DNA of 34,776 nt, taken from IMG/VR virus record IMGVR_UViG_3300036985_001284, positions 1 to 34,776 of that record. The stretch is one strand, 5' to 3'. Under the pieces are notes generated by a model. The model was not told where the DNA came from and searched no databases. It worked only from the letters and a program-made list of their open reading frames with translations. How positions within the stretch are numbered: the stretch's first letter is position 1; every line of letters starts with the position of its first letter. Positions 3,754 to 20,630 of the stretch are shown in pieces. The DNA is from a virus. Both the position numbers and the translations under genes were made by a program.

Positions 3754-5073
3754 TTATTGTTCGGTTTGGGTGACGGCGAGAATGACTGCTGGTGCAGCGG
3801 GTGCAAATGCGGTGGCTGCTACGGTTGAGATGCTTACGTTTGTGTTATCTGAGGCGTACATAACTTCAATGAATTCGTTGGCAAGCAATGAGGCAATCAC
3901 GTTTAGAGTGACGACTAGGTATCCATTATTAAGCGTGATAGATGCAACTCGCGCTGAATTTGGCAAATCAGTGGTTCCATTTTTTCGGAGCCATACCCAA
4001 ATTGATTTCTGAGAGCTATTGCCCGAGGTGATTTGCACGGAAACGGCGAGATTGTATAAGCCTGCCTGATTAACGTAAACCTGAGATGTGGTGGCTCCGA
4101 CATAGACGCCGTTGGCAATTTGGGTCGTATTGAAAAGCAGGGGATAGGCGGTGTTTATTGCGGCTGGCGTTTGGCTATTTGTCTTGGTGAACTCTCCGTA
4201 GTAGAGCTGTTGCTGAATGGTGGGGCGCACGAAAATAATGCCGTCGGTGGTGCCGACTTGGAGCACGGCGGCGACGGGGATAACGTTGTTGGGCGCGGTG
4301 GGCTTGATGTTGGTGAATGCGCCTGCGACGGTGGGGCTGGCATAAAGAACGTCGCCTAGGGTGAATGCACTGGTGTTGACGTCACGGACGAAGCCGAAAA
4401 CGGTGCAGTAGCCTTTGTTCCCGGTGTCGGGGAGGTCGTGGGTCATGACGCCGACGATGTAGAGCGAGGGTGTGGAGCCATTGGCTAGGTAAGGGGAGAC
4501 TGAGAGGGCGCTGTCGGGTACGGCCCCTGTAAAACCCACCACGGTGCCGTTGGGTATGGTGGAGCCGGTGAAGTTGGCTACGCGTGCGTAGGTCTCTAAT
4601 CCAATCTGCTGCACCACGTCATATTCCATGCCGACTTCAACGGTTTGGTCTGTCTCGTTCCATGCCATGCGCCGGATGCGGGAGGCGTGGGGGGCTATGC
4701 CGTTGAAGTCTAGGTAATCGGTAACAACTGAATTGTTATTCTGAATGACGGGCGCGGCTGGGAGTAGTTCAAAGGCCTGTAGTCTTTTGACCACTTCGGA
4801 GAGTGAATCTAAAGCTGTCTGAACTTTGGCATTGATGGCGGCGTCGTCAACGGCGGTGTCCTGGGCGAGTGAAGCGATAAGGGCTAGGGCTTCGTTGGCG
4901 CTGGCCTGGGCGCTGCCTGCGGCAAGGCTGACCTCGTTGACTACGTCGGGGGCTATTTGATCGACGACGGCAAAGAGCAACTCGAATTGCCTGATCTGTT
5001 GTTGGTCGGTTAAGAAGGCCGCGAGCTGATCGCGGGTTAGGCTGAGTTTGCGTGAGTAGGGTGCGGTGGCCAT
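3754..5073 (-). CDS. Needle-position virion protein with a C-terminal C1q/TNF-like region (439 aa)
   Basis: It lies directly after the gp10-like gene, where P22 encodes its tail needle gp26. Residues 1-100 are helical and Ala/Gln/Leu-rich (LTRDQLAAFLTDQQQI, then ASANEALALIASL), compatible with a trimeric coiled coil. The middle is beta-rich. The last ~150 residues (AYPLLFNTTQIANGVYV ... VYVNQAGLYNLAVSVQI ... KSIWVWLRKNGT) show the strand pattern of C1q/TNF-like jelly rolls common in phage fibres. Some P22-like needles (phage Sf6) end in a TNF-like knob, so a needle, plug or fibre role fits. At 439 aa it is longer than P22 gp26 (233 aa). The role is inferred; the virion location is well supported by context. 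Confidence 0.6.
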   Translation of the reverse strand: MATAPYSRKLSLTRDQLAAFLTDQQQIRQFELLFAVVDQIAPDVVNEVSLAAGSAQASANEALALIASLAQDTAVDDAAINAKVQTALDSLSEVVKRLQAFELLPAAPVIQNNNSVVTDYLDFNGIAPHASRIRRMAWNETDQTVEVGMEYDVVQQIGLETYARVANFTGSTIPNGTVVGFTGAVPDSALSVSPYLANGSTPSLYIVGVMTHDLPDTGNKGYCTVFGFVRDVNTSAFTLGDVLYASPTVAGAFTNIKPTAPNNVIPVAAVLQVGTTDGIIFVRPTIQQQLYYGEFTKTNSQTPAAINTAYPLLFNTTQIANGVYVGATTSQVYVNQAGLYNLAVSVQITSGNSSQKSIWVWLRKNGTTDLPNSARVASITLNNGYLVVTLNVIASLLANEFIEVMYASDNTNVSISTVAATAFAPAAPAVILAVTQTEQ

Positions 5074-10467: not shown

Positions 10468-12503
10468 GGTAACTGGCCCTGCGGTGCTATGACTTCCATC
10501 ATCTTGAGGGCGTGGTCTTGAGAATCCATGTCGACCTCGGATAAGGTTTTCATGGTTTGGGCGCGTTTGAGTTCGGCGGCTGCTACGGTTTCCACGGTGT
10601 CGGCGCGGGCTTTGGCGGCTTTGGCTGTGGCTTCCTCTGCTGCGGCTTGGAGGTACACCGCGTTCGGGTCTTGAGGCTTGCCTTGCATTTCGGCCATCAT
10701 TTCTTCTTGCTCTGCGTCGGTGGGTTTGAGCACGCCCATGCGCAAGAGTTTCTTTCTAAAGTAGGCGTTTGCGTCGCTGATGCCTTCGCCTTCCATGTTC
10801 ATCATGGCCATGGCGGTGATGACCTGGGCGGTCTCTGGGTCTTGAGTGATCTGAAGCATTCCAGTGAGGGCGCGCACGGTTGCTTGCTTCTTGCTGCTGC
10901 TGGATGGCCCCACGTCTGCGATGACGTCGAATGTGGCGCTGCTCATGTCGTTTTCCATGACGATTTCGCCGGTCTCTTGGTCGATGGTGGGTTGCATTAA
11001 CTCGACGACGCCGGAGTCGCCGGATGGGGCGACGGTCTTCATTTTGCGCTTGTCTTCGGTGTAAATGTCACGGGCCATCGAGAGCCAAATCTCGCCGCAG
11101 CGCTTCATGCCCTTGGCGAAGTTGCTCATGTATATGAAGGATTGACCGTCGACGCGGGTTTGAATCATCTCGACGGCTTTGCCTGACATACCGCTGACCA
11201 TTTGGTCTGCGCCTTGCTGGTTGCCGAGGATGTCCTGCATGTCGGTCTCGGTGATCTGCAAGAGCGCGGCCATGGCGGGCGGGATTTGTGGGCTTTTGGT
11301 GTAAGCCACCGGGCCGCTGATGGCTTGGTTGCCGTTTTGGTCGGTGATGGGGTTAATGAGCAGGTACGGGTAGTCTTTGAGATTGTCCTCTGCCCACATG
11401 ACCTGATGCCCGGCGACTTGCTCTGGCATAAGGATGGGCTTTTCTACGCTTGAGAGGGCGCTGATTTCTCCGAGCTTGGAAAGCTGCATATTCTTGAGGC
11501 GCTGGGCGTCTTTGGCAAGCCTGACGTGCCCCATGCAGCGTTCCACGTTGTCAACGAACCAGCGTTTGCCGTAGACGACCACGATTGGGATGCACTTACC
11601 GGCGATGTAGCCAGCGTCTTCCAGGACACGGCCACCGCTTAGAACGTATTTGCGCACGCGTTTGCGCTTGACTTTCTTTTGGCGTACTTCGCGGGAACCG
11701 ATGGCGGCTAGGGTTTCCTCTAGGCTTTCGTCGTTGGTGAAGTCGGCCTGTGTGTAGCGTTCCTCGGTGCCATCGATGGCCGCAAAGATGCGGATGGTCT
11801 CGGTCTTTTCCTCGACTTTGTAATACTCTGCGACGTAAACCACGTCCGGGGTGCACCAGTCAAATTCTGATTGGTGAATGATTTTTGGCCAGTCGGTGGG
11901 GTTGTCGTTGTAGGTTTCGGTGTAAGCCTGGCGGGTCATGCTGGTGACGACGTAGCAATATTTGGCGTCTGATTTGTCCTGGCGCTTGGCACCGAGGTCA
12001 AAAAACACTGAGCTGTCGGCGTCGAAGATGGGTTCGATGCGGATCCGCTGGCGGTCGTCTTCGTCGTTTTCCTCGTCTTCGTAGACGGTGCGCAGGCGCC
12101 ATGCACCGATGCCGCCGCCTACGGCTTCCTCGAATGCGTTGTCGTAGGCTTCGTCGGCGACGGATGCCTGTTCGTCTGCCCGGTAGAGGCCGTCGCAGAC
12201 TTCGGCGAGCTTGTCGTTTTCGGCACCGTCTTTGCTTACGAAGTCCACCGTGATGCGGTTATTGCGGTATTCGTTGACGACGCGGATGACGGCCAACATG
12301 ATTTTGTTGACCTCGAATTTTGGTTTGTTCTCGTACTGATCCCAAAGTGGGCCTTCCCACTGGGCACCGGCTAGGCTGTAGAAACGCCGGTCTTGGAGGC
12401 ATTGCAGGCGCTCGTCTCGCAGGGCGCTTTGGACGTCATCAAACTGGGTGATGGCTTCGGAGTGGATGTTGGCGAGGCGTTGGTCGGTGGATAGGCGGGC
12501 CAT
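10464..12503 (-). CDS. Portal protein, P22 gp1-like
   Basis: From the ATG at 12503 (good AAGGA site 9 bases upstream) the product is 679 residues; P22 portal is 725 aa. An upstream in-frame ATG at 12539 would add 12 residues but lacks a ribosome site. It contains the family blocks DRRFYSLAGAQWEGPLWDQY, then FEVNKIMLAVIRVVNEYRNN (about residues 50-85) and a C-terminal Ala/Glu-rich helical barrel-like region (YLQAAAEEATAKAAKARADT). Dodecameric portals form the DNA entry channel and bind terminase and gp4. It sits between the large terminase and the scaffold region, as expected. Confidence 0.9.
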   Translation of the reverse strand: MARLSTDQRLANIHSEAITQFDDVQSALRDERLQCLQDRRFYSLAGAQWEGPLWDQYENKPKFEVNKIMLAVIRVVNEYRNNRITVDFVSKDGAENDKLAEVCDGLYRADEQASVADEAYDNAFEEAVGGGIGAWRLRTVYEDEENDEDDRQRIRIEPIFDADSSVFFDLGAKRQDKSDAKYCYVVTSMTRQAYTETYNDNPTDWPKIIHQSEFDWCTPDVVYVAEYYKVEEKTETIRIFAAIDGTEERYTQADFTNDESLEETLAAIGSREVRQKKVKRKRVRKYVLSGGRVLEDAGYIAGKCIPIVVVYGKRWFVDNVERCMGHVRLAKDAQRLKNMQLSKLGEISALSSVEKPILMPEQVAGHQVMWAEDNLKDYPYLLINPITDQNGNQAISGPVAYTKSPQIPPAMAALLQITETDMQDILGNQQGADQMVSGMSGKAVEMIQTRVDGQSFIYMSNFAKGMKRCGEIWLSMARDIYTEDKRKMKTVAPSGDSGVVELMQPTIDQETGEIVMENDMSSATFDVIADVGPSSSSKKQATVRALTGMLQITQDPETAQVITAMAMMNMEGEGISDANAYFRKKLLRMGVLKPTDAEQEEMMAEMQGKPQDPNAVYLQAAAEEATAKAAKARADTVETVAAAELKRAQTMKTLSEVDMDSQDHALKMMEVIAPQGQLP

Positions 12504-12542
12504 GTGTTTAGTTCCTTGGGGTTTGCGCGATTGTCGCATTGA

Positions 12543-13769
12543 CTACCATTTGTGCATAGTAGCTATTGGGGTGAAGGCGGCGGGTTTGGCTGCACCGGAG
12601 CGCCGGACGGCTTCACAGGCATAGCGTAGGGCGTCGATGACGTGATTCTTTTTGTCCTCTAGCACGGGCAGTATCTTGCCGGTTAGCGGATCGGTCTTGT
12701 AGCTGTAAAGGGTGAGTTCGTCGATGGTGTGGAGGCAGCGGGGGTGCACCACGATGTCGTAGTTCTTTAAAAACTCGATGCCTTCTTCGACGGATTTGGG
12801 GCCTTTGACCGCGGTCATGATCTTTGGAAAGCCGTTCTTTCTCATGTGGCTGATGGTCTCGGGCCTGGCGGAGTCGGCGACGATGGGCCACTTTTCGGCC
12901 TCGGGCACTTGCATGAATAGTTCGGGGGTGTTGACGATCTCGCAGCCCACCATGTAGGCTTCGTAGTCGATGTAAAGCGTTCGCCCGATGATGTGGCAGC
13001 GCACCAAGGTTGTCGGGTCAACCGAGAAGCCCCAGTCAGCGCCGAAGCGGTGAATGGCGTCACGGGGGGCGTCGAAGTCGTCGACACGCCAGTTTTTGAA
13101 TACGCGTGAGACGCTGTTGGTAAGGTAACCGCCCATCCAGACGTGCTGGTATTTGTCGGGGTCACGGCGGAGGTCGTACTGCATTTCATCCCTGAGCACG
13201 TCGGGGAACCACGGGTTGTCGGTGAAGTTGACCTTTAAAACGGTGGCGTCTTTGGGTGGTGTTGCGCCGCGTAGAAGGATGTCGACCGGGTCGCTGGACT
13301 GGCGCGGGTTCCAAGTAAACCAGAGCTCGGAGTCGGGTTTCCTGATTGTGGGCCGGAGCAGGTCCAAGCTGGTCTGGCTTAAAGACTGGGCTTCCTCTAC
13401 CCACGCGCAGTCGTAGCCTTCTAGCGACTTAATGCTGTCGGCGGTATGGTTCTGCATACCTTGGAAAATAATGGCTCCATCGCCCTTCTTGGACTTGATA
13501 ACGGCGTCCTGGACTTCAAAGTAAGCACCGGCGTTCATGCCTTGGATTTTGGTCTCCAGTAAACGCTTGACGGACTGGCTGAGTGATTTCTGAATCTCGC
13601 GCACGCAGACGCTTCGCCGCTTTTGGTCGATGATGTGGGCTTCGATCATCAACTCTGCAAAGAGGTGCGACTTTCCTGAGCCACGCCCACCCCATGCGCC
13701 CTTATAGCGGCTGGGTTCCATCAGGGGAATGGCCCAGGCTGGGGTTTGGAGTTGCAGGACTTTACTCAT
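12543..13769 (-). CDS. Terminase large subunit
   Basis: The 408-residue packaging motor has Walker A GGRGSGKS at 27-34 and Walker B with catalytic Glu CAWVEEA at 121-127. The coupling-like WFTWNPRQSSDP follows near 152. The C-terminal RNase H-fold nuclease shows acidic residues in FGADWGFSVDP, IVADSARPETI and KNHVIDALRYA. It is shorter than P22 TerL (499 aa) and looks like a PBSX/Terminase_3-type enzyme, so the packaging module is not purely P22-like. Whether it cuts headful or at cos sites cannot be decided; a circular contig fits headful packaging. Confidence 0.92.
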   Translation of the reverse strand: MSKVLQLQTPAWAIPLMEPSRYKGAWGGRGSGKSHLFAELMIEAHIIDQKRRSVCVREIQKSLSQSVKRLLETKIQGMNAGAYFEVQDAVIKSKKGDGAIIFQGMQNHTADSIKSLEGYDCAWVEEAQSLSQTSLDLLRPTIRKPDSELWFTWNPRQSSDPVDILLRGATPPKDATVLKVNFTDNPWFPDVLRDEMQYDLRRDPDKYQHVWMGGYLTNSVSRVFKNWRVDDFDAPRDAIHRFGADWGFSVDPTTLVRCHIIGRTLYIDYEAYMVGCEIVNTPELFMQVPEAEKWPIVADSARPETISHMRKNGFPKIMTAVKGPKSVEEGIEFLKNYDIVVHPRCLHTIDELTLYSYKTDPLTGKILPVLEDKKNHVIDALRYACEAVRRSGAAKPAAFTPIATMHKW

Positions 13770-14202
13770 GCTTGACGATGACGCGCTCGATCTTCGTAAA
13801 CTCTAGGGGGGCACCGTCAGCGCCGGTGATTTCGTGTTTTTGAGTTTCTGCCCAGCGCATTTGGGTTTTGCTCCACCAAATCATGGCCGTGGTGTCGCCG
13901 CCCATGGCTTTTTGGAATAGGGTTTTCCCTACCTGCCCGTTTGCTTTGGCCTTGCCTGATACCAGCTCGGTTGCGAAGTGTGCGCGTAGGGTATCAACGT
14001 GGATGCCATCGCGCACCAGTGCGCCTATCTGATCGATTGGGAGGCCGTAGCCTGACAACGCCTCGACCTGTTTACGCTCTGAATCGGTGGGGACAAAAGC
14101 TGGGCGACCAGCGCCTGGTTGAGCGCCACCAGTGCCAGGTCGAGCACCACCGTGCTTTTTTACAGGGGGTTTTTCTTCAAGTTTGGGTTTTTTATTGGTC
14201 AT
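13762..14202 (-). CDS. Terminase small subunit
   Basis: A 146-residue protein from the ATG at 14202; the longer frame opens only with TTG at 14229. The N-terminus is basic, with a tandem GGARPGTGGAQPGAGRP-type motif at about 17-33. This is a DNA-minor-groove-like element often seen at the start of phage small terminases. An HTH-like segment follows (YGLPIDQIGALVRDGIHVDT, about 61-80), then a helical oligomerisation part (KTLFQKAMGGDTTAMIWW). The gene overlaps terminase large and the upstream ABC-GNAT gene by 8-11 bases. It selects pac/cos DNA for packaging. Confidence 0.85.
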   Translation of the reverse strand: MTNKKPKLEEKPPVKKHGGARPGTGGAQPGAGRPAFVPTDSERKQVEALSGYGLPIDQIGALVRDGIHVDTLRAHFATELVSGKAKANGQVGKTLFQKAMGGDTTAMIWWSKTQMRWAETQKHEITGADGAPLEFTKIERVIVKHE

Positions 14203-15289
14203 GGCTTGATTTTGCTCCAATGTATTCAAATGATGCCGTAAGCCTGTTGATGCTGGTATTTTTCCTGTTTGTGATTTTGGAATAAGCAGGCGGTGGGCTT
14301 ACGCGGCCTGGTGGCCTAGTCATGCGCCACTTCAACGATTTTGCCCGGTAATGAATCATGGCGGGATGGCTTGTCACGCTTGTAAATCGCTTGACTTCGC
14401 CCAGCAATATATCGCCAACGTGTTCGGAAAGTTTGTTTCCAAGACCAATGCCCTGAAAATCAGGCAGCACAACCGTTCGATGTTCTTTCCAAACGTCTTT
14501 AACCTTTGGATGTGGGAAAGGCAAGATTGCAGTCATCGCGGCTGGTTGGCCTTCAATGGTCGCAAGATACACCCTTGCCGCCCTGTTTAAGTCGGCGCTT
14601 AAATAGTGATGACCTTTGAATATTTGCCAGATGGAATGATGCACTTGTTGAATCTGGACTTCAATTGATGGTCGCCGAAGTAACCTCCGAGAGAATTCCA
14701 TTGTGGATACGTCGTAAACCCAATCTGGTTCAAGCCATTCTGCAACATCGTAATGACACGTAACCGCCACAAATTGACGCTTCATTTTGCGCACGTACTT
14801 TTGCACGGCATAACTTCCAACCTTTGCAACGGTACGATCCACCAATGATGTGAACTCATCAAAAATCAAAGCGCCTTTTGTTTCAAGGATTGCACGGGCC
14901 AGGTCTGCCCTAAATTTTTGACCGTTGCTAAGGCAGTGATAAGGCAGCAACCAAGCAGGCGGGCTTGCAAATCCTACATGACTGAGTGAATCCGTGATAA
15001 TTTTAATATCCAAAGATTCATCAAAATCGTTCAAAAATGACGATTTACCCCATGCGTGCGATTCAAAAAATGTTGCATCATTAAAAGCACGCTTGGCAAT
15101 TGTTGTTTTGCCAGCGCCGGACGAGCCAACAATTAACCCAACATTCCAATCCAATCCTTCAATTGGCAAATCAACATCCCATGATTTAACCAAACGACTT
15201 GATGCTGGGACATCAAACATCCCGACCACTTTTTCGGTGCGAAATGTGGGCAAATATTCGGTTTCGATTACATGGTTAAAACGCGGCAT
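14192..15289 (-). CDS. Soluble ABC-type ATPase fused to a GNAT (Mom-like) acyltransferase domain (365 aa)
   Basis: Residues about 20-205 form an ABC ATPase: Walker A GSSGAGKT (55-62), signature LSNGQ (120-124), Walker B ALIFDE (140-145) and H-loop TCH (177-179). There are no membrane segments, so this is not a transporter. Residues about 210-325 form a GNAT-type domain: GHHYLS (226-231), YLATIEGQPAAMTAI, and an acetyl-CoA-loop-like PDFQGIGLGNKL (276-287). The C-terminus ends in TASFEYIG. The GHHYL...G.....F layout and position of the GNAT strands recall phage Mu Mom, which modifies adenine in DNA. The gene overlaps ParB-like upstream by 22 bases and terminase small downstream by 11. It is visibly more AT-rich than the flanking terminase genes, suggesting separate acquisition. 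Modification activity is inferred only. Confidence 0.8.
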   Translation of the reverse strand: MPRFNHVIETEYLPTFRTEKVVGMFDVPASSRLVKSWDVDLPIEGLDWNVGLIVGSSGAGKTTIAKRAFNDATFFESHAWGKSSFLNDFDESLDIKIITDSLSHVGFASPPAWLLPYHCLSNGQKFRADLARAILETKGALIFDEFTSLVDRTVAKVGSYAVQKYVRKMKRQFVAVTCHYDVAEWLEPDWVYDVSTMEFSRRLLRRPSIEVQIQQVHHSIWQIFKGHHYLSADLNRAARVYLATIEGQPAAMTAILPFPHPKVKDVWKEHRTVVLPDFQGIGLGNKLSEHVGDILLGEVKRFTSVTSHPAMIHYRAKSLKWRMTRPPGRVSPPPAYSKITNRKNTSINRLTASFEYIGAKSSHDQ

Positions 15290-15831
15290 TTCAGTCCTTG
15301 TTTGGTCAGCATTTCATAAACGCGTTCTTGTTCTGATTCATCTTGACAAGTCACGGAAACTTCAAAAGCAGAATTAACCGCCTGTTCTTCGGGTTCAATG
15401 TCCAGCGCATCATCGCCAAACATGGCCGCTGTCAGTTCATCGCCAGTGAAACCCGTCAATTCAAGATCAAATCCTGAAACGTCCAATTCAGCCAATTCAA
15501 GCCGCAACATTTCATCATCCCACCCAGCATTCAGCGCCAACTTGTTATCCGCAATGATGTAGGCCCGTTTCTTGGCATCGCTCCAACCTTTGGCCACCAT
15601 GACAGGGACTTCGGTCATCTTGAGACGCTGGGCGGCAAGGGTGCGCCCGTGGCCTGCAATGATGCTTCCTGCCTCGTCAACGAGCACCGGGGTAGTCCAG
15701 CCCCATTCTTTGATTGAGGCGGCTATTTGGCCGATTTGCTCGTCCGAGTGGGTGCGGCTGTTACGGGCGTAAGGAATGAGGCGGGTGATGTCCCACTTTT
15801 CCACTTTGTCGGCTGGGTTGATGGTCGCCAT
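15268..15831 (-). CDS. ParB/sulfiredoxin-fold protein (187 aa)
   Basis: The ATG at 15829-15831 (MATINPADKVEKWDI) is preferred. The longer frame to 15996 reads a His/Gln-rich stretch that is really another gene in a different frame. Residues about 12-105 form a ParB N-terminal-like domain: WDITRLIPYARNSRTHSDEQ, then the nucleotide-site-like SIIAGHGRTLAAQRL (56-70), with GHGR in place of the GERR of chromosomal ParB. This variant is typical of phage ParB proteins, some with nuclease or NTPase activity. The C-terminal piece (SAFEVSVTCQDESEQERVYE ... GLKCRVLTM) forms a small extra alpha/beta unit. The overlap with the ABC-GNAT gene points to joint action. Confidence 0.82.
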   Translation of the reverse strand: MATINPADKVEKWDITRLIPYARNSRTHSDEQIGQIAASIKEWGWTTPVLVDEAGSIIAGHGRTLAAQRLKMTEVPVMVAKGWSDAKKRAYIIADNKLALNAGWDDEMLRLELAELDVSGFDLELTGFTGDELTAAMFGDDALDIEPEEQAVNSAFEVSVTCQDESEQERVYEMLTKQGLKCRVLTM

Positions 15832-15833
15832 GT

Positions 15834-15959
15834 TTAAAACCCTGAGCTGCTGCTGGTGGTGCAAGTGATGCTGTTGTCCCAGTTCCGGACGCACCGGGTG
15901 GTGGTCTGAGCCTGGGCAAAGGTGGCGGTGAGTGCGAGGATAAGGATTAGGGTTTTCAT
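15834..15959 (-). CDS. Tiny secreted peptide with signal sequence (41 aa)
   Basis: An ATG at 15957-15959 opens a 41-codon frame ending in TAA at 15834-15836, three bases before the ParB-like ATG. The product starts MKTLILILALTATFAQAQ, a textbook Sec signal peptide with an AQA cleavage site. The remaining ~23 residues (TTTRCVRNWDNSITCTT, then SSSSGF) contain two cysteines that could form a disulfide in the periplasm. There is no lipobox, so it is not a lipoprotein. No strong Shine-Dalgarno is seen. Possible roles are a periplasmic effector, superinfection exclusion or lysis accessory; none is demonstrated. Confidence 0.6.
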   Translation of the reverse strand: MKTLILILALTATFAQAQTTTRCVRNWDNSITCTTSSSSGF

Positions 15960-15985
15960 AATGTTTAGTTTGTGTAATTTTGTGT

Positions 15986-16279
15986 TCATTGTGCATTGTC
16001 TTCTTTTTCTAAGCGGTTCGCCACCAATGTTGGATAGCCGCCAAGGTCAACCCAGTTGTCGGCATAGTTTGGATCGCCATTCAGGATGCGTGCGATTTTG
16101 TGAGCGATCATTTCCAAGGCTTCGCGCTGGTCAGACACCAGCCGTTCCCAGCCGGGGTGATTGCGCATGTCGTCCTTGATGGTTTGGCTGATGTTGGCGT
16201 GGCCTTCGAAAGTGCCGTAGCGGGCTTCACGGCCTGCGAGCATTTCATTGATGTTGGTGATTTTGTTTTCTGTTGTCAT
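15986..16279 (-). CDS. DUF6378-type phage protein (97 aa)
   Basis: The ATG at 16279 starts the recognisable product MTTENKITNINEMLAGREAR then YGTFEGHANISQTIKDDM. The longer frame to 16399 runs into the repeat-rich noncoding region. The family motif REARYG.F..HA.I.Q.IK is followed by REALEMIAHKIARILNGDPN and ADNWVDLGGYPTLVANRLE (about 57-92). This helical family is widespread in phages near replication genes and is of unknown function. It lies immediately beside the candidate origin. There is no catalytic signature or membrane segment. Confidence 0.75.
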   Translation of the reverse strand: MTTENKITNINEMLAGREARYGTFEGHANISQTIKDDMRNHPGWERLVSDQREALEMIAHKIARILNGDPNYADNWVDLGGYPTLVANRLEKEDNAQ

Positions 16280-16762: not shown

Positions 16763-18781
16763 TTAATTTTGATTCTTCCTGAGCAGCATTGCGCTGGCCT
16801 GAATGGTGTCGATAACAATCCAGCCGTGTTCGAAGGATTCGATAATTTGAGCGGTTAGGAGGTCTGCAATGAGCTTGCCGGGGACGCTTGGTTTGATGTA
16901 TTGTTTGGCTGATGCTTCGCTTAAAGCGAGCTTGTTGACTAAATAATCGGTCATGGCGGATCGGCTAATGTAGGGCATTCCGTTGCGCTCTTCGGCGTTG
17001 GAGGCCCACCATGCGTTCTCAAAGGTTTTGCGGTGGCTGTCTACCTTGCTGTCTTTTTTGTCTGCTTTGGCGGGTGCTTGAGCCTCGATAATCACGGCGC
17101 TGGTGACGGGTTTGTCGTCTTCATCGAACCAGCCTGGAATGGCTACTTGGTGAAGTTCAACGAATACGGTCTCTGCCATCTCTGCGTCTTTGCTCTTTCT
17201 TTGCACGATTTCCATGGGCTTGGTGTCTTTGCCTGGCACGATGCTGATCTCAATATCCAATGCCCCGCGCCAAGCGCTTGAGCCACGGGCGCGGTGTTGG
17301 GCTTCTTCGCTTACGCCGGTGTGGTGCACCAAAATAACGGAGCAGTTGAATTCCATCATTAAGGCGTTGCAGGCATCTAGCATGGTCTTGGCGTCCTGGG
17401 CGCTGTTTTCGTCGCCTGATAGAAAGCGGTGCAAGGTGTCCACCACGATAACGCTGGGGCTGATGTTGCTCTGCTTTATGGCGGAGGTAACGCGCTGGTA
17501 GCCTTCGGTGGTGTTGAGGTCGCAACCGTCTCGAGAGAGCCACATTGAGAGTTTCCCGGCCTGATTGTGGTGCTTCCAAGCGGCGACCCTGCCGCGTAGC
17601 CCGTGGTGACCTTCGCCCGCTAGGTAAACCACGTTGCCGGTTTTGACTTTGTGGCCTATCCAATCGGGGGTGCCGCTGGCCATGCGAAGGCACCAGTCTA
17701 GGACTACGAAGGTTTTGCCGCCCCCTGATGGGCCGTGGACCATGATTAAGGCTTGCTCTTGGAGCCAGCCTTTGACGAGCCAAGCGATGGGGCTAGGTTG
17801 GGCGCAGAAGTCATCTGCGGGGATGAGCCAGTCATTCTTTGGAGGGATGAGCAGGGCGGCTAGGTTATGGCCTGCCTGGGCGTAGTCGTTGGCGTCCCCT
17901 GGGAGCGGTGGCATAACTACGCGAACGCCATATTTGGCGCTGGCCTGATCTGCGTAGCGTTGGCCTACGCCTGAGGCGTCATTGTCTGCGACTAAAACAA
18001 TGTCCTGGGTGGGGCTGTACATTTCGCGCAGGCTGGCGGTGACGGGTACCAAGTTGCTCGCGCTGTAGGCGACTACGCAGGGGCGGTTGGTGGTCTCATG
18101 AATGGTTGCGGCGGTGGCAAAGCCTTCGGCAACATAAAGCGTGCCGGATTCGTCCATGGTTCCGATCATCCAGAATTTGCCGCCGGTCTGACCGCCTGAG
18201 TGGTAGAGCTTGCCGCCGTCGTGGGTGATGTACTGCAAACTGGCCAAGGTTCCGTCTTGGTCGTAAAGTGGGACTACCAAGCGGCCATCGCCGGTTGCTC
18301 TAGCGCCGTGGACGCCAATACCCTTTTTGGCTAGGTAGGGGTGATCCTGCAATGCGGCCTGTGCGCCGGTCCAAATCTTTTCTACTGTGGCGGATGCTGC
18401 TTCATGTTTGCGCTCTAGTTCCGCGTCGCGTAGGGTTTTGGCTTCGGTCATGCGCCTGGCGTGGGCCATTTCCTCGGTTTGGGTGAGTTTTCGCCCGACG
18501 TCTGCCCGGAATGTTTGTTCCATCCCCATGCGCCAGCAACCAAAGCGGCCTGCTGGGATGCCGTCCCCAAAAATCAGATACCAGCCGGGCTTATCGCCGT
18601 GGCCTGGTGCACCTTTTGTGCCTGATTTGAAGCGGTGAATCTTGCCGTCCATGTGGATGTCGTCGGGCGGTTCCAAACCTGAGTTGGCCATGGCTTCGCG
18701 GAGTTGGGTCTCCGGGCTTGAGATTAGCTTTTCTGGTGGCGGTGCCCAAGGCCCGCCGAGGATGTTAGATAGATTCGCCAT
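16763..18781 (-). CDS. TOPRIM primase / RepA-like replicative helicase (672 aa)
   Basis: Residues about 165-300 contain a TOPRIM domain, with YVAEGFATAATI (216-227) and the acidic LVADNDASG (263-271). Residues about 330-560 form a RecA/AAA_25 hexameric-helicase-like domain with Walker A GPSGGGKT (350-357), Walker B VIVVDT (444-449) and the sensor-like VILVHHTG (482-489). This is the architecture of bifunctional phage and plasmid primase-helicases. The C-terminus (about 590-672) carries a helical wing-like region. The start ATG at 18781 overlaps the HTH gene. Together with host polymerase and DnaA it would drive theta-type replication from the origin nearby. Confidence 0.9.
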   Translation of the reverse strand: MANLSNILGGPWAPPPEKLISSPETQLREAMANSGLEPPDDIHMDGKIHRFKSGTKGAPGHGDKPGWYLIFGDGIPAGRFGCWRMGMEQTFRADVGRKLTQTEEMAHARRMTEAKTLRDAELERKHEAASATVEKIWTGAQAALQDHPYLAKKGIGVHGARATGDGRLVVPLYDQDGTLASLQYITHDGGKLYHSGGQTGGKFWMIGTMDESGTLYVAEGFATAATIHETTNRPCVVAYSASNLVPVTASLREMYSPTQDIVLVADNDASGVGQRYADQASAKYGVRVVMPPLPGDANDYAQAGHNLAALLIPPKNDWLIPADDFCAQPSPIAWLVKGWLQEQALIMVHGPSGGGKTFVVLDWCLRMASGTPDWIGHKVKTGNVVYLAGEGHHGLRGRVAAWKHHNQAGKLSMWLSRDGCDLNTTEGYQRVTSAIKQSNISPSVIVVDTLHRFLSGDENSAQDAKTMLDACNALMMEFNCSVILVHHTGVSEEAQHRARGSSAWRGALDIEISIVPGKDTKPMEIVQRKSKDAEMAETVFVELHQVAIPGWFDEDDKPVTSAVIIEAQAPAKADKKDSKVDSHRKTFENAWWASNAEERNGMPYISRSAMTDYLVNKLALSEASAKQYIKPSVPGKLIADLLTAQIIESFEHGWIVIDTIQASAMLLRKNQN

Positions 18782-18959
18782 GGGTGGTGTTACGGCTGGT
18801 TAAGTAGGCGCTGAGGGCGAGCATTACTTTGTAAGTGGGATTGGCGTTTTCATTGTCTCTGATCTGAGCAATGGTGTTGTAGTGCAGGCCGGTGGCCTCT
18901 GCTACTTTGCCGGGGCTTCGGTCTTCTAGGGCTTGGCGGATTGCGTAGAGGGTCATCAT
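18765..18959 (-). CDS. Small Cro-like helix-turn-helix protein (64 aa)
   Basis: The protein is MMTLYAIRQALEDRSPGKVA followed by EATGLHYNTIAQIRDNENAN and a short tail. The helix-turn-helix is KVAEATGLHYNTIAQIRD, about residues 18-35, a XRE/Cro-type recognition pattern, though the domain is short. An AAAGGAA site stands before the ATG at 18959. It is the first gene of the minus-strand arm and abuts the divergent promoter region, so it is well placed to control the early/late choice. No CI partner was found, so it probably acts alone or against a host regulator. Confidence 0.75.
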   Translation of the reverse strand: MMTLYAIRQALEDRSPGKVAEATGLHYNTIAQIRDNENANPTYKVMLALSAYLTSRNTTHGESI

Positions 18960-19085
18960 GGTTTTGGTTCCTTTTGTGAAAATAAATTGTTTTGATGTGT
19001 GTATCTTACCTTACTTTGTGTGTTAAAGTCTAGCCATGCCCCGAACTGATACCCAGACGGGGGCATAAAAAAGGATGAATTGAAG
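18960..19085. promoter_or_regulatory. Divergent promoter/operator region
   Basis: This 126-base gap separates the two arms. On the minus strand TAGACT, an 18-base spacer and TAAGAT could form a promoter for the HTH gene. On the plus strand an extended -10 (TG-T-TAAAGT, 19021-19029) without a clear -35 lies just before a hairpin. The repeated TTACCTTACTTT element (19006-19017) could be an operator for the HTH protein. Position is strong evidence; individual boxes are weak. Confidence 0.5.
19036..19066 (+). other. 5'-leader stem-loop before the Sak4-like gene
   Basis: ATGCCCC at 19036-19042 and GGGGCAT at 19060-19066 form a 7-bp GC-rich stem with a 17-base loop, directly followed by AAAAAAGGA, the ribosome site of the next gene. 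There is no T-tract, so it is not a terminator. If transcription starts near 19036, the hairpin would sit at the 5' end of the early mRNA, where it would protect it or modulate translation. Confidence 0.5.
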
Positions 19086-19763
19086 ATGGCAATTAATTTA
19101 AAAAACACGGGCGGCTTGTCTGCCAATGGTGTGAAGCTGCTTGTCTACGGGCAAGCTGGGGCGGGTAAAACTTCCCTGATTAAGACGCTGCCGACGCCGT
19201 TGGTATTGTCTGCCGAGGGTGGGCTGCTGTCCATCCAAGATGCTGACCTGCCATATATTGAGGTCACCAGCATGGCTTCTTTAATGGAGGCTTACCAGTG
19301 GCTGACTGAGAGCGACGAGGCGAAGCACTTTGAATCAATCGCGCTGGATTCGATCAGTGAGATTGGCGAGGTGGTGCTGAACGCTGAAAAGAAGGCGACG
19401 AAAGACCCACGGGCGGCATACGGTGCGATGCAGGAGCAAATGAGCGATTTGATTCGGGCATTCCGTGATCTGCCTGGTAAGCACGTTTACATGACGGCGA
19501 AGTGTGAAAAGTCGCAGGACGAAGCTGGGCGCATTCTTTACGCGCCTTCTATGCCGGGGAATAAGACCGGCCAGGCGCTGCCTTACTTCTTTGATGAGGT
19601 GCTGGCCTTGAGGGTTGAGAAAGACGCGGAGGGCGTGACTCAGCGGGCTTTGATGTGTGATTCTGATGGCCTTTGGCTGGCGAAAGACCGGAGCGGCAAG
19701 CTGGCGCCATGGGAGTCGCCGGATTTGGGTGCCATCATTGCAAAGATTGGAGCACGGTCATGA
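19086..19763 (+). CDS. Sak4-like RecA-fold ATPase (single-strand annealing helper)
   Basis: The ATG at 19086 is favoured over a TTG at 19080 because AAGGA lies 10 bases upstream. The 225-residue product has Walker A YGQAGAGKT (21-29), LVLSAEGGLLSIQD (39-52) and Walker B SIALDSISE (84-92). This is the compact RecA-like core of the phage Sak4/AAA_24 family, which promotes annealing together with an SSB. Here the DUF669 SSB-like gene lies two genes downstream and the DUF7173-type gene between them, the usual trio. It opens the early operon. Confidence 0.85.
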   Translation: MAINLKNTGGLSANGVKLLVYGQAGAGKTSLIKTLPTPLVLSAEGGLLSIQDADLPYIEVTSMASLMEAYQWLTESDEAKHFESIALDSISEIGEVVLNAEKKATKDPRAAYGAMQEQMSDLIRAFRDLPGKHVYMTAKCEKSQDEAGRILYAPSMPGNKTGQALPYFFDEVLALRVEKDAEGVTQRALMCDSDGLWLAKDRSGKLAPWESPDLGAIIAKIGARS

Positions 19764-20134
19764 GTCTTGCACGCCAATGGCTCGACGCCAAAGATGTCGA
19801 AACCCGGTCGATTCGCCTGCGCCGTGACATTGAGGATGAAATGGTGGCGCTTTACAAAATCTCGAATCAAGCCGAAGGCACGCAGAATGAGACTGAGGGG
19901 GCTTACAAAATCAAGATTGTGAACCGTATCAGTCGCAAGGTGGATTCGGACAAGGTGCAGGAGTTGGCCGCTGAATTTGGGCTGACTGAGCACTTGGCAA
20001 AGTTGTTCCGCTGGACGCCTGAAATAAATGCTTCGGCATGGAAGGCGGCTGACGAAACTATCACGCGTCCTTTGATGGACGCAATCACGGCGACCCCTGG
20101 ACGCCCTTCTTTTTCAATCAATATTTCGGAGTAA
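19760..20134 (+). CDS. DUF7173-type phage protein (124 aa)
   Basis: The start is the ATG at 19760, overlapping the Sak4 stop as ATGA. The sequence MSLARQWLDAKDVETRSIRL then RRDIEDEMVALYKI, with later VNRISRKVDSDKVQELAAEF and a PGRPSFSINI tail, is a family commonly encoded between Sak4-like and DUF669 genes. It is helical and hydrophilic, with no enzyme motif. By context it is an accessory of the annealing/recombination module. Confidence 0.75.
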   Translation: MSLARQWLDAKDVETRSIRLRRDIEDEMVALYKISNQAEGTQNETEGAYKIKIVNRISRKVDSDKVQELAAEFGLTEHLAKLFRWTPEINASAWKAADETITRPLMDAITATPGRPSFSINISE

Positions 20135-20141
20135 TTACATC

Positions 20142-20630
20142 ATGGCTTTTTTAGAACAATCATTCTCGGTGGCTGATCTGCCAGTTTCAACCAACAACTT
20201 TGAGCCGTTGCCCGCTGGTTGGTACACGGCGAGCATTGCCGGTGCTGAGATTAAAAACACGAAGGCCGGTACTGGCCAATACATTGCGGTGAAGTACACG
20301 ATCACCGGGCCGTCGTTCCAGGGGCGTGTGGTGTTTGGTAACCTGAATATTAAAAACCCCAATGTGAAGGCCGAGGAAATTGGACGTCAGCAACTGGGCG
20401 AGATTATGCGAGCGATTGGACTGGCAAAGGTGACGGACACGGACCAACTAATCGGCGGCAATATCTCGATCAAGCTGGAGGTGAAGCGTTCCGAGGAATA
20501 CGGGGACAGTAACGAGATTAAACAATTCAAGGCAATGTCTGGGGCTGGTGGCGCAATGCCGGTGCCTTCTGCGGCTGGTGTTGCTGCTGCTGCACCGACA
20601 CGCGCTGCACCACCGTGGGGCAAGAAGTAA
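20142..20630 (+). CDS. DUF669 / single-stranded-DNA-binding-like protein (162 aa)
   Basis: The protein has an OB-fold-like strand series: PAGWYTASIAGAEIKNTKAG, IAVKYTITGPSFQGRVVFG and ISIKLEVKRSEEYGDSNEIK. A flexible Ala/Pro-rich tail ends in PPWGKK. This is the DUF669 family, which often replaces SSB beside Sak4 or Redbeta-type recombinases. It lacks the acidic SSB tip, but the PPW near the end may be a protein-interaction motif. It probably coats ssDNA for annealing. Confidence 0.8.
   Translation: MAFLEQSFSVADLPVSTNNFEPLPAGWYTASIAGAEIKNTKAGTGQYIAVKYTITGPSFQGRVVFGNLNIKNPNVKAEEIGRQQLGEIMRAIGLAKVTDTDQLIGGNISIKLEVKRSEEYGDSNEIKQFKAMSGAGGAMPVPSAAGVAAAAPTRAAPPWGKK

Follow-up and report, generated by a model that had tools for sequence, protein, structure and literature searches.

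A ParB-like protein and an ABC ATPase-GNAT fusion in an exchangeable slot beside phage terminase genes: a probable DNA-modification module

What is the function of a ParB-like protein and an ABC ATPase-GNAT fusion that are encoded directly beside the terminase genes of a phage? The question is raised by a locus in the window, the whole 34,776-nucleotide stretch of viral DNA analysed here, where ParB, ABC-GNAT, the small terminase (TerS) and the large terminase (TerL) follow one another on the minus strand. A sequence-only reading had put forward a Mom-like ParB/ABC-GNAT complex that modifies DNA. In a comparative setting, the locus consists of a ParB-like body that is conserved and, after it, a C-terminal tail and an effector that are exchanged, the effector here being the ABC ATPase-GNAT fusion. 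The comparison suggests that the pair most likely decorates the DNA of its own phage with a small chemical group, which would shield it from bacterial enzymes. The features referred to below are as follows.

15268..15831, minus strand: ParB/Srx-superfamily protein, 187 aa, with AGHGR at residues 59-63 (PF02195, 27.7 bits against a cut-off of 26.3)
15464..15831, minus strand: ParB body, residues 1-122, the constant part at cassette exchange (blastn homology to relative L055 ends at 15464, 91.7% identity)
15268..15384, minus strand: ParB C-terminal tail, about residues 150-187, cassette-specific and presumed to be a docking element (tail HMM)
15295..15299, minus strand: AAGGA within parB, a putative Shine-Dalgarno-like element as read from the sequence, 10-6 nt ahead of the ABC-GNAT ATG
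15268..15289, minus strand: 22-nt overlap of parB and the ABC-GNAT gene (of equal length in 127 of 180 adjacent pairs)
14192..15289, minus strand: ABC ATPase-GNAT fusion, 365 aa (Pfam; phrog_11143, 7e-100; AlphaFold pLDDT 92.0, pTM 0.84)
14678..15289, minus strand: ABC ATPase half, residues 1-204 (Walker A/B, signature and H-loop conserved)
14207..14677, minus strand: GNAT half, residues 205-361, pI 10.4 (invariant residues; model pLDDT 92.1)
14191..15463, unstranded: exchangeable cassette of 1273 bp, comprising the end of parB with the tail and ABC-GNAT (replaced in L055; GC 45.3%)
13762..14202, minus strand: small terminase TerS, ATG at 14202 with an alternative TTG start at 14229, the downstream flank of the slot (phrog_309, 1.3e-12)
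12543..13769, minus strand: large terminase TerL (PF04466, 100 bits)

Both gene overlaps claimed in the earlier reading, of 22 nt between ParB and ABC-GNAT and of 11 nt between ABC-GNAT and TerS (counted from the TerS ATG), are present, and the former recurs beyond chance, being retained down to 40% ABC identity. The AT-richness noted for the fusion gene relative to the terminase genes is likewise borne out, with the cassette standing against 55-57% GC for TerS, TerL and the ParB body; the shift falls inside parB itself, from 55.7% in the body (residues 1-122) to 45.4% in the remainder. In Pfam searches of the window, ParB_N, ABC_tran and Acetyltransf_1 all scored above their cut-offs.

Because the very same slot, between ParB and the terminase, is occupied in related phages by known DNA-modifying enzymes, we favour a role in DNA modification, and we consider it probable that the ParB/ABC-GNAT pair forms a module whose enzyme is exchangeable and which modifies phage DNA after replication. 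The slot was surveyed in 83 contigs, made up of the best 80 relatives of ParB (chosen by ParB alone), the GenBank phages L042 and L043, and L001, which entered the set through the ABC-GNAT search and not the ParB search; representative slot enzymes were identified by Pfam and PHROGs and the remainder by similarity to these representatives. A terminase lies on the contig in 78 of the 83, and all 78, which are mutually related and hence not independent, hold exactly one class of modification enzyme: TAGT in 31, an N6/N4-methyltransferase in 28, Mom in seven, a C5-methyltransferase in six, ABC-GNAT in five and TET/JBP in one. Four of the five ABC-GNAT slots came from the ParB search itself and the fifth from the ABC-GNAT search. 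Among the five contigs without a terminase, four also have a slot enzyme of these classes and the fifth breaks off within the slot, and no contig among the 83 was found to hold two modification classes. Extra enzymes accompany the TAGT in 2 of 31 slots (a His-phosphatase/cytidylyltransferase) and the C5-methyltransferase in 3 of 6 (a SAM-dependent enzyme).

Cassette exchange takes place at this slot across several phage lineages, and comparisons between near relatives locate its boundaries. By blastn, L055 is identical to the window at 92.6% of positions over 11364-14190, 91.7% over 15464-16258 and 94.7% over 17052-20561, and in place of the window's 14191-15463 it has a His-phosphatase/cytidylyltransferase and a TAGT. 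One boundary lies just past the ABC-GNAT stop codon and the other inside parB at codon 122, where the change in GC coincides with the end of homology. A similar swap is seen in Streptococcus phages, in which Javan141 encodes ParB, ABC and GNAT, and Javan128, 447 and 486 a ParB-methyltransferase; their ParB nucleotide identity of 94-97% ends at about codon 118. In Gordonia phages, Sisko has ABC-GNAT between ParB and the terminase, and MakoManhole has in the same slot a weak Tet_JBP match, an ADDT (amino acid:DNA transferase) and a P-loop nucleotide kinase, Ploopntkinase3.

Several of these loci contain genes of interest in their own right. Beside the slot TAGT of L055 (5755-6708), L057 and L095, a His-phosphatase is fused to a cytidylyltransferase-like domain, which possibly supplies an activated sugar to TAGT, and a gene resembling SAM-dependent methyltransferases (phrog_4752; L089:2862-3530, also in L101 and L116) goes with the C5-cytosine methyltransferase cassette. 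The slot Mom proteins (PF25680) of environmental phages fall into two subfamilies, one in L058, L062 and L070 and the other in L073, L081, L091 and L107, and in the second of these the ParB C-terminus ends in a zinc-ribbon-like motif, CPHCGKEFD. In Javan128, a gene with an S-adenosylmethionine synthetase N-terminal domain (L282:5666-6445) follows the ParB-methyltransferase, and in Sisko the gene after ABC-GNAT (L125:1814-2464), annotated as a tRNA-methyltransferase, matches Formyl_trans_N (PF00551, 40 bits) and not a methyltransferase.

The protein encoded upstream of the slot belongs to the ParB/Srx superfamily by its ParB_N domain, and in PHROGs it matches phrog_620 (1e-55) and the ParB half of the ParB-methyltransferase phrog_498 (4e-52). 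The phrog_498 fusions resemble the present pair in joining the same ParB body, beside the terminase, to a DNA-modifying enzyme, but in them the methyltransferase is fused to ParB, which has no tail, whereas here ABC-GNAT is a separate protein and presumably docks on the tail. At the level of sequence, this tail tracks the enzyme and not the ParB body. An HMM of the last 38 residues of ParB, trained on the ParBs of L001-L037 only, matches all 144 ABC-GNAT-adjacent ParBs outside the training set and none of 91 ParBs from loci without ABC-GNAT; eight further matches, classed as non-adjacent, all come from loci in which ABC-GNAT lies slightly further away. The ParB of L055 is 88% identical in its body and lacks the tail, and that of Javan141, at 37% identity, has it. 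The gene overlap alone does not explain the tail, because it covers only some seven tail codons and the tail persists in loci where the overlap is absent. We infer that the tail is a docking element for ABC-GNAT.

The motifs ascribed to the fusion in the earlier reading were found at the residues given, both in the ABC motor (Walker A GSSGAGKT at 55-62, signature LSNGQ at 120-124, Walker B ALIFDE at 140-145, which includes the catalytic Glu, and H-loop H179) and in the GNAT half (GHHYLS at 226-231, and the acyl-CoA loop Q/R-x-x-G-x-G/A as QGIGLG at 279-284). Pfam assigns the two halves to ABC_tran (30.5 bits, cut-off 25) and Acetyltransf_1 (PF00583, 25.0 bits, cut-off 20.7), and in PHROGs the whole fusion falls within phrog_11143, a family of unknown function. 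The predicted ATP-site and acyl-CoA-loop residues of the effector are conserved: in an alignment of 74 sequences, G60, K61, S121, G123, D144, E145 and H179 of the ABC half and H228, Y229, R271, Q279, G280 and W321 of the GNAT half are invariant. AlphaFold gives a confident two-domain model, with an ordinary soluble ABC domain and a domain of GNAT fold; VIA-align matches the former to an ABC nucleotide-binding domain (Z 15.7, 176 residues, rmsd 2.8) and the latter, which is very basic, to a GNAT (Z 14.5, 138 residues, rmsd 3.7). A PADLOC match to mad3 (E 1.8e-10) spans only residues 105-195, around the ABC signature and Walker B, and was judged to be generic ABC similarity; a literature search on mad3 gave no useful paper.

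The best matches of the ABC half are mostly nucleotide-binding domains of transporters, and several GenBank annotations make of the protein a transporter component ('iron siderophore transporter'). The fusion to a GNAT, the conserved ParB and terminase neighbours and the lack of any recognised permease among the recurrent neighbours classified speak against this, and the transporter reading, rejected on gene context, is almost certainly wrong.

A more serious alternative arises from the GNAT half, whose model is closest to protein N-acetyltransferases of the RimI, Naa50 and NatA type (Z 13-14). The GNAT might accordingly acetylate a host or phage protein, such as RNA polymerase, a nucleoid protein or the terminase, with ParB and the ABC domain merely bringing it to DNA, and a phage GNAT, Rac, is described in PMC7824862 as acting on host RNA polymerase. 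Nonetheless, nearness in fold to a large and generic group of GNATs tells little of the substrate, and since in other phages DNA methyltransferases, Mom, TAGT, TET/JBP and ADDT enzymes take the place of this gene one for one, a protein target appears improbable. The resemblance to protein N-acetyltransferases, together with the existence of family members without a detectable ParB neighbour, does count against the reading as DNA modification.

An RNA substrate, or action as a toxin, would be a further option, since whole-model Foldseek matches include TmcA (tRNA-Met cytidine acetyltransferase, 2zpa), at E 4.5e-7 and over 440-446 alignment columns that run across both domains. TmcA is like the fusion in combining a P-loop ATPase and a GNAT in one chain, and these N4-acetylate cytosine, but its ATPase is of the helicase and not the ABC type and its substrate is tRNA. 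Because the rmsd of 13.9-15.3 A reveals no shared domain arrangement, the match was taken as one of architecture only. Moreover, Pfam detects ABC_tran and GNAT in the fusion but neither a helicase nor a tRNA-binding domain, DNA enzymes occupy the slot, and ParB is the partner; action on RNA, for instance as a tRNA acyltransferase of the TmcA type, is thus very unlikely.

The likeness to Mom proposed from sequence fared less well than the motifs. Mu Mom (PF25680, PDB 8bv8) belongs to the GNAT superfamily, and Mom proteins occupy the same genomic slot in related phages, so that ABC-GNAT might be conceived as a divergent Mom producing N6-methylcarbamoyl-adenine. The GHHYLS motif, which had been compared with Mom, reduces to two residues, a His-Tyr pair early in the GNAT domain, which both families keep invariant. 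The fusion gives no hit to Pfam Mom at E<=1, against 142-253 bits for the positive controls (Mu Mom, at 253, and the true Mom proteins of the slot), and hhalign against Mu Mom and seven slot Mom proteins was negative for both the full-length protein and the GNAT half (probability 0.1, E 0.45). In the structure comparison of the GNAT model, 8bv8 is not among the best 50 matches, an absence that is compatible with Mom. Mom, in addition, has no ABC domain or partner, and we regard a divergent Mom as a very poor candidate. Of the complex originally proposed, the DNA-modifying unit is supported by the slot enzymes and the ParB tail, and the Mom-like character is not, the profiles being negative.

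Hence, we return to DNA modification by a distinct GNAT effector, for which the following course of events can be envisaged. ParB, whose neighbours here are ABC-GNAT and terminase genes, would act as a DNA- or NTP-dependent platform and not as a plasmid-partition protein; its tail would dock ABC-GNAT, and the 22-nt overlap might couple the synthesis of the two proteins. ATP-driven dimerisation of the ABC domains may then clamp or scan DNA, and the basic GNAT domain would use an acyl-CoA to acylate the exocyclic amine of one of the canonical bases, candidates being adenine N6 and cytosine N4, with the acylated phage genome presumably protected from restriction. No base-precursor enzyme was found among the ten further window proteins scanned, and this, together with the features of the GNAT, makes modification of a canonical exocyclic amine the simplest idea.

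The family is widespread: the phage collection has 54 records of it, IMG/VR at least 598 stretches, and the genomes of bacteria and archaea 427. In a survey of 202 loci, of which 195 have enough upstream sequence and some share a contig, so that counts are not fully independent, ParB lies directly upstream of ABC-GNAT in 180 of the 195, in agreement with the co-occurrence that the sequence-only reading had suggested surveying. In Javan141 and in the Lactococcus phage P335, ABC and GNAT are separate genes and the 22-nt ParB/ABC overlap is retained.

Genes seen repeatedly around ABC-GNAT are those for ParB, for terminase-like and portal-like proteins, and for ASCH proteins. Eighteen loci spanning several phyla (L037, L126, L136, L141, L148, L149, L155, L157, L158, L159, L161, L162, L167, L172, L201, L244, L248 and L268) have ASCH-like genes close to ABC-GNAT, often directly downstream and convergent, and none was found in ParB-slot loci without ABC-GNAT; of ten checked, five score above the Pfam cut-off, two below it and three have no Pfam match. 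This proximity is unlikely to be due to chance, uncorrected for kinship as it is, because ten host genomes of 5-12 Mb contain only 0-3 ASCH genes each. ASCH domains have been predicted to read modified bases (PMC7641849), and the ASCH protein YqfB hydrolyses N4-acylcytosines via Lys21, Thr24 and Glu74 (PMC6972931). Compared by eye, the neighbours have KxxExR against the KxxTxR of YqfB, keeping Lys and Arg and placing Glu at the position of the Thr24 nucleophile; they are therefore likelier to be readers than erasers, and YqfB-like erasure was judged unlikely. A more specific proposal is doubtful: here the module would be a DNA counterpart of TmcA, using ATP-gated acyl transfer to turn cytosine in phage DNA into its N4-acylated form (or to make another acyl-base), with ParB serving as the platform for exchangeable modification enzymes and ASCH proteins reading the acyl mark.

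The core of this interpretation is not new, because acylation of a DNA base by proteins combining GNAT and ABC ATPase domains was predicted earlier, with a homologous example, as seen in excerpts of Iyer et al. 2021 (PMC7824862, citing Iyer et al. 2013, NAR gkt573). That example, QAX98348.1 (gene 2 of AsFcp_2), shares the architecture of the fusion and is homologous to it, with 39.1% identity over 86% of the fusion (E 1e-58), and phage pT24, also named in these excerpts, shows 36% identity over 97%. The earlier statement that the pair has no established function hence holds for experiment and not for prediction. Unlike the present account, the excerpts make no mention of the ParB partner, the tail or the exchangeable terminase slot. 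For a Mu-like cryoconite phage with ParB in a variable terminase region, the excerpted text of Bellas et al. 2020 (PMC7468147) describes some variants whose region holds DNA methyltransferases and another in which an acetyltransferase is found there, but this text mentions neither the ABC-GNAT family nor a tail on ParB. Serratia phage eta was also considered and found not relevant. Across such excerpts of the related literature, with the 2013 source paper outside the comparison, we found no description of the tail on ParB, of where exactly the cassette begins and ends, of its replacement by Mom, TAGT, TET/JBP or ADDT systems, or of the link between this family and ASCH, and the cognate tail, the exchangeable slot and the recurrent ASCH neighbour are apparently new.

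More generally, the analysis turns a widespread and uncharacterised family, often annotated as a transporter, into a testable DNA-modification system, for which near-identical phages differing in their cassette provide a ready-made natural experiment and the ParB tail a rule predicting which ParB serves which enzyme. If confirmed, the system would add an ATP-dependent acylation chemistry to the known phage DNA modifications, and a docking rule by which such modifications might be recognised in genomes.

Some members depart from the common arrangement. ParB was not detected next door in the large-phage members pT24 and AsFcp or in the Planctomycetia member L190, where ABC-GNAT (L190:4962-6092) stands among metabolic-looking neighbours and is possibly a chromosomal copy outside a phage. 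In Tenacibaculum phage pT24 (L044:3971-5143), the ABC-GNAT frame is broken by a single in-frame stop at 4733-4735 and is annotated as two genes, both halves of which otherwise align.
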